IMG/VR virus record: IMGVR_UViG_3300033049_000066
Coordinates: 62,001 to 126,000 of that record
Length of the DNA: 64,000 nucleotides
Direction: 5' to 3' (one strand)
Origin: a virus
In this document: piece after piece, positions 11,414 through 17,589 of the stretch
Position numbering within the stretch: position 1 is the first letter of the stretch
How the letters are laid out: every line of letters starts with the position of its first letter
Translations under genes and position numbers: made by a program
The notes under the pieces: model-generated
Told to the model about the DNA's origin: nothing
Databases searched by the model: none
What the model saw: the letters and a program-made list of their open reading frames with translations, nothing else

Positions 11414-12346
11414 ATGGCAATAAAACAATTATGGACGGAATTATACCGGCCTAGCACAGTAGACGGATATGTTTTTCGAGACGACGCACAAAAAGTACAA
11501 ATTGAGAAGTGGATAGAAGAAAAATCAATTCCGCATCTTTTATTTAGCGGACCGGCCGGGACAGGGAAGACGTCACTTGCTAAGATTTTAATCAACGGCT
11601 GCGACGTTAACGAGTTTGACGTTAAGGAAATCAACGCAAGTAGAGACAACGGCGTAGATTACATTCGCGACACAATCGAAGGCTTCGTGCAGACAATGCC
11701 ATTTGGTGAATTTAAGGTGGTACTCTTAGATGAAGCAGATTATCTATCACCAAACGCACAAGCGGTACTTCGCGGCTTGATGGAAAAGTACGCACAATCA
11801 GCTCGCTTTATTTTAACGTGTAACTTTCCAAACAAAATTATCGGTGCCCTGCATTCACGCTGCCAGGGATTTCACATCAATAAAATTGACCCAACAGAAT
11901 TTACAGCACGGGTCGCAGAGGTTTGCATCGCCGAGGAAGTTGAATTCGACCTCGACACTTTAGACAGCTATGTAAAATCAACGTACCCGGACTTGCGAAA
12001 ATGTTTGAATCTTGTGCAAATGAATTCAACAACAGGCAAGCTAGACCAAGCTAACGTCAATGATACAGGCGGTGGAAGTGATGAGTGGAAACTCGCTGCG
12101 GTCGGACTGATGAAACAGCAGAAGTACACAAAGGCACGAGAAGTTATATGCGCAAGTATACGCCCAGAGGAGATTGAAGGCGTATACAGATGGATGTACG
12201 AGACACTTGAGCTATGGGGCGACACAGAAGAAAAACAAGATGCGGCGATACTAGTTATCCGCACCGGGTTAGTGAACCACACGCTAGTGGCCGACCCTGA
12301 AATAAACCTTGCTGCTTGCCTCATTGAATTAACACAACTAGATTAA
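11414..12346 (+). CDS. 44: clamp loader large subunit gp44 (AAA+)
   Basis: 310 residues (T4 gp44 is 319). It contains GPAGTGKTS (Walker A, residues 46-54), VVLLDEADYL (Walker B, about 103), the sensor-1 region LTCNFPNKI, and the SRC motif in LHSRCQGFHI, which supplies the arginine finger as in RFC/gp44 proteins. With gp62 it opens the sliding clamp gp45 (41499) and loads it on primer-template for gp43 (38679). The small subunit gp62 is not recognisable nearby. The gene ends with tandem TAA TAA followed by the next ribosome binding site. Confidence 0.95.
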   Translation: MAIKQLWTELYRPSTVDGYVFRDDAQKVQIEKWIEEKSIPHLLFSGPAGTGKTSLAKILINGCDVNEFDVKEINASRDNGVDYIRDTIEGFVQTMPFGEFKVVLLDEADYLSPNAQAVLRGLMEKYAQSARFILTCNFPNKIIGALHSRCQGFHINKIDPTEFTARVAEVCIAEEVEFDLDTLDSYVKSTYPDLRKCLNLVQMNSTTGKLDQANVNDTGGGSDEWKLAAVGLMKQQKYTKAREVICASIRPEEIEGVYRWMYETLELWGDTEEKQDAAILVIRTGLVNHTLVADPEINLAACLIELTQLD

Positions 12347-12358
12347 TAAGGAGAACAC

Positions 12359-12721
12359 ATGAGATATTTTATAGTATCGTACTACAAGCAACCAACCGGC
12401 AAGATTAATGAAGCAGTTAAACTTGACACAAAAGTTAGAATGAAAGACTTACAGCAATCATCCGTCATCCTGGACTACAAAACTCGCAAGGTCGTCAAGT
12501 CCAACTTTGAGGAAGAGCTCGGCAAAGACAGGCAGCACGACTTCGAGACCATCCACGATTTTTACAAAGGGCACTACACGCAACTAATTTCACAGCTCGA
12601 AGCGAAGTACGAGGTCCTTCAGCAAGCCCTAGACATGGCGAAAACTATTGTAGACGAAGAAAACATTGAGAAAGTGACAAAAACCTTGGAAAATGCTGCG
12701 AAGGACGAAGCAGGTGTTTAA
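12359..12721 (+). CDS. conserved T4-like hypothetical protein
   Basis: 120 residues. The N-terminus (MRYFIVSYYKQPTGKINEAV) and the segment LQQSSVILDYKTRKVVK are typical of a small protein family widely kept in T4-like aquatic phages. The C-terminal half is helical and charged. It directly follows gp44 with a strong AAGGAGA ribosome binding site. I do not see similarity to gp62 despite the position. Function unknown. Confidence 0.7.
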   Translation: MRYFIVSYYKQPTGKINEAVKLDTKVRMKDLQQSSVILDYKTRKVVKSNFEEELGKDRQHDFETIHDFYKGHYTQLISQLEAKYEVLQQALDMAKTIVDEENIEKVTKTLENAAKDEAGV

Positions 12722-12980
12722 TGGTCCGCTAGCGATGATGGCAGCATTTTGCGTGGTGAGCCTGCGGGCATTTCAGCAGCAAAATGTCATTCACGGATAT
12801 TATAAGTGGGCAGCCGCCACAAGTTATGCCCTGGCGTTTGCTGACATCGCCATCGTGCTGGCTGTGGTTCAAATTGGCTGGTCGGCTGTATTGTGGATTG
12901 GAAGCGGCGGCGCACTAGGCGTAACATTTGCGATGTTTATACATAAAAAGTACATATATAAAGAACGTGCATCAAATTAA
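12714..12980 (+). CDS. small membrane protein, three predicted TM helices
   Basis: 88 residues from GTG 12714, which has AAGGA eight bases upstream; ATG 12693 is an alternative. Hydrophobic segments fall near residues 7-20, 32-51 and 55-76, and a short basic tail (HKKYIYKERASN) should face the cytoplasm. Proteins of this layout follow gp44-region genes in other T4-like phages. It overlaps the upstream gene and ends with TAA TAA opposite the 3' end of the convergent Fe-S carrier gene, which it overlaps by four bases. Confidence 0.65.
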   Translation: MFNGPLAMMAAFCVVSLRAFQQQNVIHGYYKWAAATSYALAFADIAIVLAVVQIGWSAVLWIGSGGALGVTFAMFIHKKYIYKERASN

Positions 12981-13348
12981 TAATTACTACCACCAGCTGC
13001 GCTACAGCCACCGCAAGATCCGCCTTGTGCTGTATTTGAAAAAGCATTTTTAAATACAAAATGCGGATCGTTAGTTTTATCGTTGTAGTCGATTTGTACG
13101 CCACGCAAGAAACTTAGTGCCACGGCGTCGATATATAATAACAATCCATTTTGTTTAAGCACTGCATCGTACTCTGATGGCTTGTCAGAGAATGTCATTC
13201 CGTAAGTCATACCAGAACATCCACCTCCCGAAACAAAAATTCTTACACCGGTCTTATCATCTTCTTCTGCGATATATTGTACCAATGTTTCTGTAGCTAG
13301 ATCTGACACAATGACTTCGTCTGTTAATTTTGTTATAAATTTTGACAT
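12977..13348 (-). CDS. A-type iron-sulfur carrier (HesB/ErpA family), second copy
   Basis: 123 residues on the minus strand. GGGCSGMTYGMTF near residue 42 and the C-terminal SCGGC supply the three family cysteines, but the last pair is CGGC instead of the usual CGC. The C-terminal tail (SAAGGSNY) is extended. It probably carries Fe-S clusters like its relative at 7996, though the altered spacing may change cluster type. It is convergent with the upstream plus-strand operon and follows the secreted protein gene (13351) by two bases on the minus strand. Confidence 0.85.
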   Translation of the reverse strand: MSKFITKLTDEVIVSDLATETLVQYIAEEDDKTGVRIFVSGGGCSGMTYGMTFSDKPSEYDAVLKQNGLLLYIDAVALSFLRGVQIDYNDKTNDPHFVFKNAFSNTAQGGSCGGCSAAGGSNY

Positions 13349-13350
13349 TA

Positions 13351-14196
13351 CTAATCAATCACCGGTGGTTTTGGTAGTGCGGTTATCACTGCACTTGTAT
13401 CAGCTGAGATTGTAAAATTATCTATATAGAAATACGTGTTCTCATCGAATCCTGAATTCGACCAGCCAAAAATATACCCAGCGTCAAACCCTGTAATACC
13501 ATTGTCGGAATACCAATGCCCATTATGTATGTTGATTATCTTTGTAGTTATTCCGTTGCCGTTGGTCTTCCAGATTTCGTAAACACCGTCATTGTTTGCA
13601 CTGGTCGCATACTTCATGTGTATTTTCAAATGCATCCATTTGCCACGGTCCGCCCGTACAATGCCATTACTGGTTTGCCCGTTGCTACAAGTGCTACACC
13701 ACCAATTTACTGTATTCTTCTGACCATTTAATCCGTTCCGATGGTAGGCAATAAATCTACTGGTTCCATCACTATTTGCCCACAAATGTCCACCAAGTTT
13801 CGTAACAGTTTTATCACGATACTCACCTGTCCACATCCATACATAGGCTTTGTTGTTATCTGATCCAGGACCCTTGCGATGATAGTAATTTGATGGGACA
13901 TACAGATCATATTCGATCCACAACTCTCGATGCCTCGATGTTAGTTTAAACCGTTGTTCGGAAAAAGAGTCTTTGCCTATCGGTACCCCAGGGTAGCTAA
14001 ATTTCAGTGAGTATTTTCCACTTTTCGCCCTATCAGATGAGATGGATGATTTTACACCAGCCTGCCATCTAAATCCACTATTATTAACGAGTGAGCCAGA
14101 TTCAAAGCTAGTGGCATAAATTTCACCGGCTTGAACACTGCTAGCAAATATTAATAATAAAGCAGCAGTAAATTGTAATAATTTGTAAGTAAACAT
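13351..14196 (-). CDS. secreted polysaccharide lyase-like / lectin-fold protein
   Basis: 281 residues. A clear Sec signal peptide (about 1-23, cleavage after SSVQA) is followed by a beta-rich jelly-roll. Motifs such as FSYPGVPIGKD, LWIEYDLYVPSNYYHR, WMHLKIHMKYA and the final YFYIDNFTISAD resemble heparin-lyase-like and concanavalin-type carbohydrate-binding proteins. Catalytic residues cannot be assigned with confidence, so it may bind rather than cleave glycans. A signal peptide is unusual for phage proteins and implies export to periplasm or surface during infection. Two ATAAATA motifs on this strand precede it. Confidence 0.65.
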   Translation of the reverse strand: MFTYKLLQFTAALLLIFASSVQAGEIYATSFESGSLVNNSGFRWQAGVKSSISSDRAKSGKYSLKFSYPGVPIGKDSFSEQRFKLTSRHRELWIEYDLYVPSNYYHRKGPGSDNNKAYVWMWTGEYRDKTVTKLGGHLWANSDGTSRFIAYHRNGLNGQKNTVNWWCSTCSNGQTSNGIVRADRGKWMHLKIHMKYATSANNDGVYEIWKTNGNGITTKIINIHNGHWYSDNGITGFDAGYIFGWSNSGFDENTYFYIDNFTISADTSAVITALPKPPVID

Positions 14197-14264: not shown

Positions 14265-14507
14265 TTATGCTATGTCTGCGTACATTCCTAGCACCGCGCC
14301 GATGATCTTGTGACGTTGTATGTCACAAGCGGTAAGCTCGCAGGTCGTGATCCCACCAACGGGGCTGTTGAGACGTTCGCACAGATCTATAAGCCCATTG
14401 TCTTTCTTACGTTTGTCAGTCTGTTCCACATCGCCAGTCACTACGATTTTACTACCCTCGCCTATGCGGGTGAGGAGCATTTTCATCTGACCGGGAGTAG
14501 CGTTCTG
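14265..14507 (-). pseudogene. phoH: phoH 3'-terminal fragment displaced by a homing endonuclease
   Basis: On the minus strand this encodes about 80 residues homologous to the C-terminal third of the intact PhoH at 15513 (MKMLLTRIGEGSKIVVTGD against MEMLLTRIGKGSKIVITGD). Homology runs upstream through QNATPGQ, the canonical PhoH sequence after the Walker B aspartate and glutamate, and stops at 14507 with an in-frame TAG just beyond. The fragment has no Walker A and cannot be an active ATPase. Translation from the internal ATG near 14486 is conceivable. The homing endonuclease's late promoter starts two bases away. Confidence 0.8.
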
Positions 14508-14508
14508 C

Positions 14509-14516
14509 TATAAATA
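14509..14516 (+). promoter_or_regulatory. perfect late promoter (TATAAATA) for the homing endonuclease
   Basis: Exact T4 late consensus TATAAATA, five bases before ATG 14522 and two bases from the end of phoH homology, so it probably arrived with the endonuclease gene. Confidence 0.7.
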
Positions 14517-14521
14517 AAAGT

Positions 14522-15535
14522 ATGGACATCTATAAACATTTATGCACGAAGCCTCATAATTCACACCATCTCAAGCGTTATTATCAATTTTTGATTGAAT
14601 GCAGAGAACACAATGTGACTATCATAACTAATAAAGAAGTACACCATATATGCCCTAAGGCATCTGATTTATTTCCGGAGTTTAGTAATCTAAATTTGTA
14701 TGACTGGAATAAAATTGAGTTAACCTATCGTCAACATTTAATCGCACATTGGATGCTCTGGAAAGCGTATGGTGGCTCACAAGCCTACGCATTCTATGCA
14801 ATGAACAATCAAGTGAGCAAACGAGATGGGTGTAGAGTATGTCATAGTAAAATATATGAACAGGCTAAACTTGATGCTAGTATTACAATATCAAATACAA
14901 ACAGAGGATTCGCAGTATATGTTGATTCTGAAGGGCACAAAATTCGGTGCAAAATTAATGATTACCGAGTTAAAAATGGAACGTTGACATCGACTAGCAA
15001 AGGCCGCCAGTATACAGCACGTAGTGAAGAATCAAGAGCCCGGACTAGTGCATCTCTTAAAGGTAAGACTTACGGGCCTATGCAGGTTAGGCATCGGATA
15101 TTACGAAGAAAAATAAAAGTCCAGAAAGAATTGTTTTTCGATCAAAAAGAATATAAGTTTGAAATGATAGATAACTTGTATATTAATGCAAATCATATAA
15201 AGGTATTTACAAACGGCAGGCAGGTGTGGAACACCGACGGTAAGTATCGGCGGGTTAGCATAAAATTACCAATTTCTCCTCCTGGATGGTCATTTATTAA
15301 TCCTAAAATAATAATCAAGGCATTGGATATTACCGACACTAACTTTACAAGTTATATTGAGTGTTTCGGGACCGATTTGCCAAGTAAATATCATACACTA
15401 AGTTTATGCAAAATAGGAAAAGTGATGTTATATTGCACAACATTAATGAAAAATATTTACATTGACAAGGACAGTATTGCTACATACGGAATTCCCAGTA
15501 ATTGTACTCTGCCTAATCGCTGTACATTGCGATAA
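14522..15535 (+). CDS. HNH homing endonuclease
   Basis: 337 residues. The HNH core is at about 40-80: EVHHICPKA (first His pair), the NLNLYDWNKIELT region and RQHLIAHWMLWKAYGG. A possible zinc pair follows (CRVCHS), then a NUMOD3-like DNA-binding patch (SEESRARTSASLKGK, about 177-192), and a C-terminal region of unknown fold. Such enzymes cut an intron- or insert-less allele and spread by repair. The gene lies between an intact phoH and a phoH fragment, both on the opposite strand, and its 3' end overlaps the 3' end of the intact phoH by 23 bases. Confidence 0.9.
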   Translation: MDIYKHLCTKPHNSHHLKRYYQFLIECREHNVTIITNKEVHHICPKASDLFPEFSNLNLYDWNKIELTYRQHLIAHWMLWKAYGGSQAYAFYAMNNQVSKRDGCRVCHSKIYEQAKLDASITISNTNRGFAVYVDSEGHKIRCKINDYRVKNGTLTSTSKGRQYTARSEESRARTSASLKGKTYGPMQVRHRILRRKIKVQKELFFDQKEYKFEMIDNLYINANHIKVFTNGRQVWNTDGKYRRVSIKLPISPPGWSFINPKIIIKALDITDTNFTSYIECFGTDLPSKYHTLSLCKIGKVMLYCTTLMKNIYIDKDSIATYGIPSNCTLPNRCTLR

Positions 15536-16244
15536 TACTATCAATTATTGGGTGCCTGCAAATATCCTTTCGTTCCAGCTGACACGCTGCAATTGCTTTA
15601 TTCGGGTGTTGTTTTAACCGAGCTAATAGATCGGTTAACCCGTTACCTTTTGTAAATTTCTTATCGACTTGCTCAAGATCTCCGGTTATTACGATTTTAC
15701 TTCCTTTGCCGATACGTGTTAGCAGCATCTCCATTTGATTAACTGATGTCGACTGAAACTCATCACCGATGATCCACGAGTGCTTGAAGGTACGACCCCT
15801 CATGAATGCTAGCGGAGCGATTTCCACGACCCCGGTCTCGAGCATTTTTGTAATTTCAAACGCGGAGTAATATTCGCGCATGACATCCAACAGGGGGCGC
15901 GTCCAGGGTGCCATCTTTTCTTCGAGTGTACCAGGTAAGAATCCGTGTTTTTCATCCTCAACGCCGACAGCTGGCCTAGTTAGCACGATACGTTCTATCT
16001 CACTTAGTCGTAATTTTTTAATCGCAGCTAGCATAGCAAGATAAGTCTTACCTGTGCCTGCCGGCCCATGCGCAATGACTATATCTTGCGTATCGTCTAG
16101 TAAGCCTATTATGTATTTTTCCTGGTTGAGCGATTTTGGAATTAGCTGAGTATCTCTAGCCTTGGTTTTTGCTTTTACAGCGTCATTGAAACTGACGACA
16201 CTGCGGGAATTCTTGTGTTGCATTTTCTTTCTAGGTTTTGCCAA
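15513..16244 (-). CDS. phoH: PhoH-like ATPase
   Basis: 243 residues on the minus strand, starting at TTG 16244 with GGAGA seven bases upstream; no in-frame ATG is nearby. Walker A is AHGPAGTGKTYLA (about 58-70). RPAVGVEDEKHGFLPG is the characteristic PhoH segment. The Walker B region reads IIGDEFQSTSVNQME where most relatives have DEAQNATPGQMK, a notable deviation at the position where the downstream fragment breaks. PhoH proteins are cytoplasmic P-loop ATPases common in aquatic phages; the function is unsettled (RNA or phosphate-stress roles proposed). Confidence 0.92.
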   Translation of the reverse strand: MAKPRKKMQHKNSRSVVSFNDAVKAKTKARDTQLIPKSLNQEKYIIGLLDDTQDIVIAHGPAGTGKTYLAMLAAIKKLRLSEIERIVLTRPAVGVEDEKHGFLPGTLEEKMAPWTRPLLDVMREYYSAFEITKMLETGVVEIAPLAFMRGRTFKHSWIIGDEFQSTSVNQMEMLLTRIGKGSKIVITGDLEQVDKKFTKGNGLTDLLARLKQHPNKAIAACQLERKDICRHPIIDSIIAMYSD

Positions 16245-16380: not shown

Positions 16381-16968
16381 ATGAATGACGAATTATTTAA
16401 ATCAGACACAGACTTTTGGGCAATCGCAGATACTATAAAAAATATTTATATGTCAGATGGCGCATTAACTACATTACTTGATTTTGAAGGGGTTTTAGAT
16501 GAGTGTGATATTTACGCATTTAAAAACTGGATACTAGGTGAATTAGTTGAGGGGCCGGAAATTAGCCGGTACTCAGTAGCATGTACTTTTATGTGGCCCG
16601 GTCATTTAATGCCAGATCCAAAAGGTGCAAAACGCTTGCTACCATTCGATTGCAAGGTTAAATTTAAAAAGACAAAAATGAAAGTACCGCGCAAGGTTGA
16701 AGATGAATCAGACTTCCGCCCAGGTATACACAAACCTATACTAGACGCTATGCCAATTTGGTTAGTTGAGATTACTATGCCAAAAGATTTAATTGCAGAT
16801 ATACGAAGCGGGAGTATCGAATTAGAGGGCCAAGAAATTGACCTTGAAGACTTAGACCTTGGTTATGAAGAAGATTTAGATCAAGCAGCAACTATCGATA
16901 ACAACGAAGAAGAGTTACAAGACGAAGCCCAAGAACAAGACGAAGCAGATGAAAATCCATTTGCGTAA
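16381..16968 (+). CDS. conserved T4-like hypothetical with acidic C-terminus
   Basis: 195 residues. It has a globular N-terminal part (WPGHLMPDPKGAKRLLPFDCKVKF) and the segment PIWLVEITMPKDLI, then a very acidic low-complexity tail (about 150-195). It forms a pair with the next gene (16984), an arrangement seen in T4-like phages of aquatic bacteria. Late expression suggests a role in virion assembly. No enzymatic motif is visible. Confidence 0.7.
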   Translation: MNDELFKSDTDFWAIADTIKNIYMSDGALTTLLDFEGVLDECDIYAFKNWILGELVEGPEISRYSVACTFMWPGHLMPDPKGAKRLLPFDCKVKFKKTKMKVPRKVEDESDFRPGIHKPILDAMPIWLVEITMPKDLIADIRSGSIELEGQEIDLEDLDLGYEEDLDQAATIDNNEEELQDEAQEQDEADENPFA

Positions 16969-16983
16969 TAGGCGATATGACAT

Positions 16984-17589
16984 ATGACTAAAAAATTAAA
17001 TGAAGGGTTGGAATATAAAGATATGGTGGATATGATTAAGCCTACAGTATACATTGATGAATTCACCAGCAAGGTTGGCGAAGATGATGCTTATGTTGTA
17101 CTGAGTTTTTATGTACACAATATTATTGTCGCAGAAGATCTAGTTAATTGGTTTGAAACTGGTTATACATTCATCGTAGATGCAGACCGCAGCCTAGGCG
17201 AAATTGAACCCAATCGTTACCTTGTTTTTGCGGAAATCCAGCGCAGAACCCAGCTTGTCGCTCAGCTTAAAGAGATGCTTGAAGATTTTAGCACACTAAC
17301 CGACCTAGAATTAGAGGATTGGGACATAAATTACGATGGAATTGACTACAAATTCGACGCCGACGTACTTGGCGAAGTCCTACTACTTAGCCCACAGTCT
17401 TACCGAGAAGTTCACGAAGTTGAGCTAAATGAAATGCGCATCGCAGCTGGGCTAAAACATAAAAACGTGTACAACAGCACCGACGCAGCAATCAATAATA
17501 TTCGCACAGCAGCAAACCTACCTACTAGGCAAAACCCAGTTACTGACGAAGATCTTAAACAAATGCAACGAAACGCACGAATTATCTAA
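16984..17589 (+). CDS. conserved T4-like hypothetical protein
   Basis: 201 residues. The pattern TVYIDEFTSKVGEDDAYVVL, DLVNWFETGYTFIVDADRSL and EPNRYLVFAEIQRR marks a family kept across T4-like aquatic phages, always near the acidic protein encoded just upstream. The C-terminal 50 residues are helical and polar. The ribosome binding site is weak (GGCGAT), so it may be coupled to its neighbour. Probably a virion assembly component; this is inferred from context. Confidence 0.72.
   Translation: MTKKLNEGLEYKDMVDMIKPTVYIDEFTSKVGEDDAYVVLSFYVHNIIVAEDLVNWFETGYTFIVDADRSLGEIEPNRYLVFAEIQRRTQLVAQLKEMLEDFSTLTDLELEDWDINYDGIDYKFDADVLGEVLLLSPQSYREVHEVELNEMRIAAGLKHKNVYNSTDAAINNIRTAANLPTRQNPVTDEDLKQMQRNARII

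Follow-up and report, generated by a model that had tools for sequence, protein, structure and literature searches.

The phoH gene in the window, by which we mean the whole 64-kb stretch analysed here out of a 293-kb virus record, appears to have been entered by a homing element of a kind that swaps the end of the gene it enters for one of its own. The element is made up of an HNH endonuclease gene and a substitute 3′ end for phoH in which the target sequence is altered, and we put the probability of this reading at roughly 0.87. Homing is indicated by two findings from a second phage lineage that carries the element at the same codon: an empty allele that is near-isogenic with an occupied one, and a footprint of co-conversion. 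The original prediction held that the endonuclease gene had arrived within phoH together with a replacement 3′ end, and it is borne out by the chimeric host gene, the breakpoint at a codon, the empty allele, and the footprint.

Layout of the locus and its two phoH 3′ ends

The full-length phoH gene (15513-16244, minus strand) has a TTG start and encodes 243 residues that match the Pfam PhoH family with an E-value of 4e-68. A second phoH-derived stretch is found at 14265-14507 on the same strand, running from QNATPGQ to a stop, with a coding part (14268-14507) of 80 residues. It matches positions 129-204 of the 205 in the PhoH profile, which is the last third (E=2.4e-18). Aligned with the C-terminal 80 residues of the full-length protein, it shows 54% identity. 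PhoH homology had been predicted to end at 14507, at QNATPGQ, and the profile match agrees, with the fragment beginning exactly at the Q of (DEM)QNATPGQ and an in-frame TAG (14510-14508) immediately before it. An intact phoH with an unusual Walker B region had likewise been expected beyond the HNH gene. The full-length gene does read DEFQSTSVNQ there, whereas the uninterrupted relatives (L003-L008 and L055), each of which has a single phoH and not two full tandem copies, have the canonical DEMQNATPGQ.

The HNH endonuclease gene lies between the two at 14522-15535 on the plus strand. It encodes 337 residues, is antisense to phoH, and overlaps the phoH 3′ end tail to tail by 23 bp. By homology, the whole inserted unit spans 14508-15758 (1251 bp), with junctions taken from the empty-allele comparison discussed below. 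Besides the HNH gene, it would include the substitute phoH 3′ end (15513-15758, minus strand; FQSTSVNQ to the stop), which is joined to a native 5′ part (15759-16244, minus strand) that runs through the Walker B residues DE. At this junction the intact gene reads GAT GAG followed by TTT CAG TCG, while the displaced fragment starts with CAG AAC GCT. When occupied and empty alleles are aligned, the replaced Met codon of DEMQNAT, which marks the presumed cut region, falls at 15756-15758 (minus strand). The ATG of the empty allele is TTT at this position in the window, and no ATG precedes the displaced fragment.

The word TATAAATA is present ahead of the HNH gene (14509-14516, plus strand), as had been noted earlier, but a role as a promoter is not supported, and the late-promoter reading was rejected. 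The word is no evidence of promoter function because it sits only 5 bases from the HNH ATG and is less frequent across the window than base composition predicts (2 occurrences against about 8.5 expected).

The relatives provide insight into which of the two 3′ ends is native. At the amino acid level the 5′ part of the window phoH is 82-83% identical to those of L003, L004, and L005, while its 3′ part reaches only 56-58%; the displaced fragment, by comparison, is 78-84% identical to the 3′ ends of the same three relatives. Separate trees of the 5′ and 3′ parts, which had been proposed as a check, give discordant histories, in that they conflict with support and the breakpoint can be located to the codon. 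In the 3′ tree the displaced fragment groups with L004 (97/89) on a branch of 0.18. The phoH 5′ part has an end branch of 0.24 in the 5′ tree, and the intact gene's 3′ part one of 1.09 in the 3′ tree, where it falls within the host clade on a long branch whose exact position is unsure given the few columns of that tree. Gene order points the same way. L003-L005 carry, in order, a 201-aa ORF, a 195-aa ORF, phoH, a 95-aa ORF, a 120-aa ORF, and a clamp loader gene, and the window retains this order around the phoH 5′ part and beyond the fragment. The 195-aa and 201-aa ORFs are at 16381-17589 (plus strand; same order in L003-L009 and, more distantly, MIJ3), and the clamp loader, 120-aa, and 95-aa ORFs, which directly follow phoH in L003-L005, are at 11414-12980 (plus strand). 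On the basis of segment identities, trees, and conserved gene order, we read the displaced fragment as the native tail and the 3′ end of the intact gene as the substitute. Synonymous sites in the fragment were saturated in the dN/dS analysis. No close allele that could have donated the 3′ end in the window turned up in a search. Since this 3′ part falls inside the host clade, on a long branch, it may, for the window copy only, be a diverged allele from that clade or have changed rapidly once inserted.

The phoH fragment is followed, at 12977-14196, by two further genes: an ORF of 281 aa that matches no family and has a signal-like N-terminus, and a gene for iron-sulphur assembly (Fe-S_biosyn). 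By gene order, neither occurs at the corresponding place in L003-L005, where phoH is followed directly by the conserved neighbours.

Empty, occupied, and decayed alleles

A second lineage (L048, L049, and L050), in which the phoH 5′ part is 57% identical to that of the window, also pairs phoH with an antisense HNH gene and has the element at the same codon. In L048 and L050, whose contigs extend far enough, the displaced fragment can be seen, and it starts at the same codon as in the window. Because it recurs at the same codon in this second lineage, the arrangement of phoH, HNH gene, and fragment is not a matter of chance. The insert is 1251 bp in the window, 1244 bp in L050, and 452 bp in L048. 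One could suppose that assembly has simply joined two phages, since the occupied alleles are all metagenomic contigs and both L048 and L049 end in or just past the element. However, the complete layout is present on a 293-kb and a 27.6-kb contig, the gene order flanking the window's element is intact, and the junction codon is identical across different datasets and lineages, which leaves such an artefact with next to no credibility.

The base-level proof comes from the second lineage, in which L183 is a near-isogenic empty allele of a kind not known for the window copy. L183 is 96.4% identical to L048 over 3.6 kb of nucleotide sequence (L048 being read as L179 in this comparison). The two are about 100% identical through phoH up to GCT GAT GAA and then diverge abruptly. 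After GAT GAA, L048 continues with the foreign codons GTT CAA GGA ACA ACC, whereas L183 continues with ATG CAA AAT GCA ACA. The displaced fragment of L048 starts with CAA AAT GCA ACA and is 98.8% identical to L183, leaving the ATG alone unaccounted for. The single 3′ end of L183 thus matches the displaced fragment, in the comparison with L050 as well as with L048. In the trees, the 5′ part of L048 is identical to that of L183, and its 3′ part belongs to a different, well-supported clade. These comparisons fix the junctions to the base, and the insertion codon in the window is identical.

The same evidence bears on a simpler explanation, in which phoH was duplicated in tandem, one copy was truncated, and the HNH gene landed between the copies by chance with no coupled replacement. 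This would account for an HNH gene flanked by two phoH-derived stretches, but it is refuted for L048 and L050 by the comparison with L183. For the locus as a whole we consider it very improbable, as the intact gene is a chimera of a native 5′ part and a foreign 3′ part, the fragment is the native 3′ end, the join is at one codon in two lineages, and two full copies are present in no relative examined.

The preferred reading, a homing element that brings its own 3′ end, gains further support from the distribution of identity around the insertion point. L050 and the L048/L183 pair come from diverged phages, with about 75% identity in nearby DNA. Toward the insertion site identity rises through 95, 97, and 99 to 100%, the inserts of L050 and L048 are 98-100% identical where present in both, and to the right of the insert identity drops again (100, 99, 87, and 70%). 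In control pairs of comparable background, identity over the final 235 bp of phoH ahead of the site is no higher than 81-88%. We read this island of identity, centred on the insertion point, as the footprint that double-strand-break repair with co-conversion would leave.

Co-conversion is also known from ordinary intronless homing, in which a free-standing nuclease such as SegF or MobE sits beside its target (PMC2988022), and the difference between phoH copies could in that case be an allelic replacement by recombination. The nuclease here is indeed a Mob-like HNH protein, and in L083 and L174 related HNH genes are convergent with a distant phoH and have no fragment beside them. The element discussed here, by contrast, is located within a coding sequence, with the native 3′ end displaced to its far side, and its exact junctions indicate insertion and not replacement alone. 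Intronless homing of the ordinary kind is therefore improbable, if somewhat less so than the other rival explanations.

A range of allelic states is found among these phages. The lineage of L050 includes empty alleles (L183, L186, and L204) as well as the full element in L050 itself. The element of L048 has lost about 790 bp of its HNH gene in frame, with phoH intact. L128 and L141, also with an intact phoH, combine a related variant 3′ end with an HNH C-terminal remnant that contains a stop, and L147 and L170 have the variant 3′ end without any HNH gene. Taken together, these empty, full, and decayed alleles fit the cycle of gain, degeneration, and loss expected of a homing element. Downstream of the variant phoH in L128 (L128:4449-5366), another NUMOD3/HNH-like gene adjoins the decayed C-terminal remnant of the phoH-specific HNH.

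A LAGLIDADG intein is present in the phoH of L170 (L170:6451-8223), and also in L250 and L255, at MRGR^TFKN. In L170, whose phoH has the variant 3′ end as well, the intein is 13 codons upstream of the HNH insertion site. Its proximity could suggest that the HNH gene is what remains of a group I intron or intein whose splicing part was lost. Yet phoH is one open frame that needs no splicing, and the HNH gene is on the opposite strand and is not fused to phoH, so that an origin of this kind is most unlikely.

The HNH protein and the proposed homing cycle

The HNH protein matches phrog_655, annotated as homing endonuclease (E=2e-24), and phrog_12434, annotated as HNH endonuclease (E=1e-11); a Pfam search with it gave no family match. 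The HHICPK...N...H motif is invariant in an alignment of eight HNH relatives. By motif and family match, we assign the nuclease to the Mob-like HNH homing endonucleases. Its predicted structure is poor (mean pLDDT 61), a Foldseek search of the PDB with it returned noise, and the model gives no confirmation of the fold; a sequence search of the PDB had no match. A scan of GTDB returned one HNH relative, which is not near a phoH.

The window and L050 proteins, which occupy the same place in both loci, are 54% identical overall and 56% identical in the C-terminal domain. HNH relatives at other sites have the N-terminal nuclease part in common and a different C-terminal part. In IMG/VR, the C-terminal domain shared by the window and L050 proteins was found only at phoH, in a pattern search that reaches fairly close relatives only. 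Because relatives at other sites differ in this domain and it is found only at phoH, we infer that it recognises the phoH site.

The HNH protein presumably cuts the sequence encoding DEMQNAT, and the DEFQST version presumably resists it. The insertion codon shared by the two lineages supports site-specific cleavage indirectly. On coinfection with a phage whose phoH is ordinary, the nuclease would cut that gene at the Walker B codons GAY GAR ATG CAR AAY GC. Repair of the break would take the occupied genome as template, using the phoH 5′ part and the displaced native 3′ fragment as homology arms, and would copy the substitute 3′ end and the HNH gene into the recipient. The recipient would thereby gain the HNH gene along with a chimeric, uninterrupted, and presumably cut-resistant phoH, the product of which would presumably be active. 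Its own former 3′ end would become the new displaced fragment. The fragment would thus be more than a scar, acting as the working right homology arm and forming part of the machine.

Relation to known systems and other HNH loci

The closest parallel is provided by the WHO elements of Torulaspora and Lachancea yeasts, in which each homing event replaces the 3′ end of FBA1 and the displaced FBA1 fragment acts as the second region of homology (Coughlan et al. 2020, PMC7282813), the same role proposed here for the phage fragment. In both systems the 3′ end of a conserved single gene is replaced, the nuclease gene is located between a chimeric full gene and a displaced native 3′ fragment, and nuclease genes decay without loss of an intact host gene. 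An orientation antisense to the host gene, as in the phage HNH gene, is also known for some WHO genes. However, WHO proteins are intein-derived, of LAGLIDADG type with a C-terminal zinc finger, and membership of the Mob-like phage protein in the WHO family was rejected, even though its element works like a WHO element. WHO elements also form tandem clusters, which are not seen in the phage loci, and their cleavage has been demonstrated experimentally, whereas that by the phage HNH protein is inferred.

A similar arrangement is known from the mORF gene hybrids of fungal mitochondria, namely Allomyces atp6 and Glomus atp6, atp9, cox2, and nad3 (PMC3630166). Like the phage element, these consist of a native 5′ part, an inserted foreign C-terminal part, an endonuclease ORF, and a displaced native C-terminal part, and in both cases the displaced part is closer to near relatives than the inserted one. 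The hybrids differ in residing in organelle DNA, in using LAGLIDADG or GIY-YIG nucleases instead of HNH, and in having an ORF that is often in phase or co-transcribed with the host gene, where the phage HNH gene is antisense.

Among phages, the free-standing Mob and Seg homing endonucleases of T4-like phages include Aeh1 mobE in nrdA and T4 mobA in gene 60 (PMC2988022). They too target conserved phage genes with co-conversion of flanking DNA, and mobE and mobA resemble the phoH element in lying inside coding sequence, as Mob proteins do in being HNH nucleases. The difference is that mobE and mobA split the host gene into two coding parts, while phoH stays in one piece by way of the 3′ end that comes with the nuclease. 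No phage report of the gene-end-replacing type was found in the literature searched, which did not cover most subscription journals. The principle is known from yeast and fungal mitochondria, and what appears to be new here is the HNH nuclease family and the phage setting. Its occurrence in phages on an HNH protein, when unrelated nucleases are used elsewhere, suggests an independent origin. Beside introns and inteins, it would offer a homing endonuclease a third route into a conserved phage gene, which is to bring a substitute for the part it separates. It would also account for the different histories of the two ends of a gene as conserved as phoH. Care must be taken with phoH as a marker gene, as its trees can be chimeric. 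The element could also serve as a tractable laboratory model.

Related HNH genes are found at other loci. At L176:3472-6754 (IMGVR_UViG_3300046008_000242, a 249-kb contig), one sits between a 5′ fragment and a complete copy of nampt, which encodes nicotinamide phosphoribosyltransferase. At the break point the complete copy has the non-canonical LPCSTATTS in place of the PITSAT retained by the fragment and the nearest relatives. The 5′ fragment and the N-terminal part of the intact gene are about equally distant from most relatives, and a search for an empty-site relative found none. This locus is possibly a version that replaces the 5′ end. A test for flank duplication was negative at the other HNH loci, leaving L176 as the exception. 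It is conceivable, though we lean slightly against it, that gene-end-replacing elements with a Mob-like HNH protein as their nuclease form a wider class in phages, acting on several genes and at either end, with nampt in L176 as the 5′ version. Were this so, nucleases would be able to settle in the best-conserved codons of single-copy genes with no need of introns or inteins, and such genes would evolve as chimeras.

The phage of the window has a second phrog_655 HNH gene (G000:C1:263651-264493, L339), which abuts a NUDIX-like ORF; a duplicated flank was not noticed there. Three related HNH genes are arranged tail to tail with a neighbour, overlapping or abutting its 3′ end, this neighbour being a distant phoH at L083:1537-3082 and L174:3884-5710 and an nrdB-like gene at L173:839-2669, with no displaced fragment seen at these three loci. 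Two more, at L172:2441-5239 and L175:2463-4258, are directly downstream of a putative gp23-like major capsid protein gene and on the same strand.
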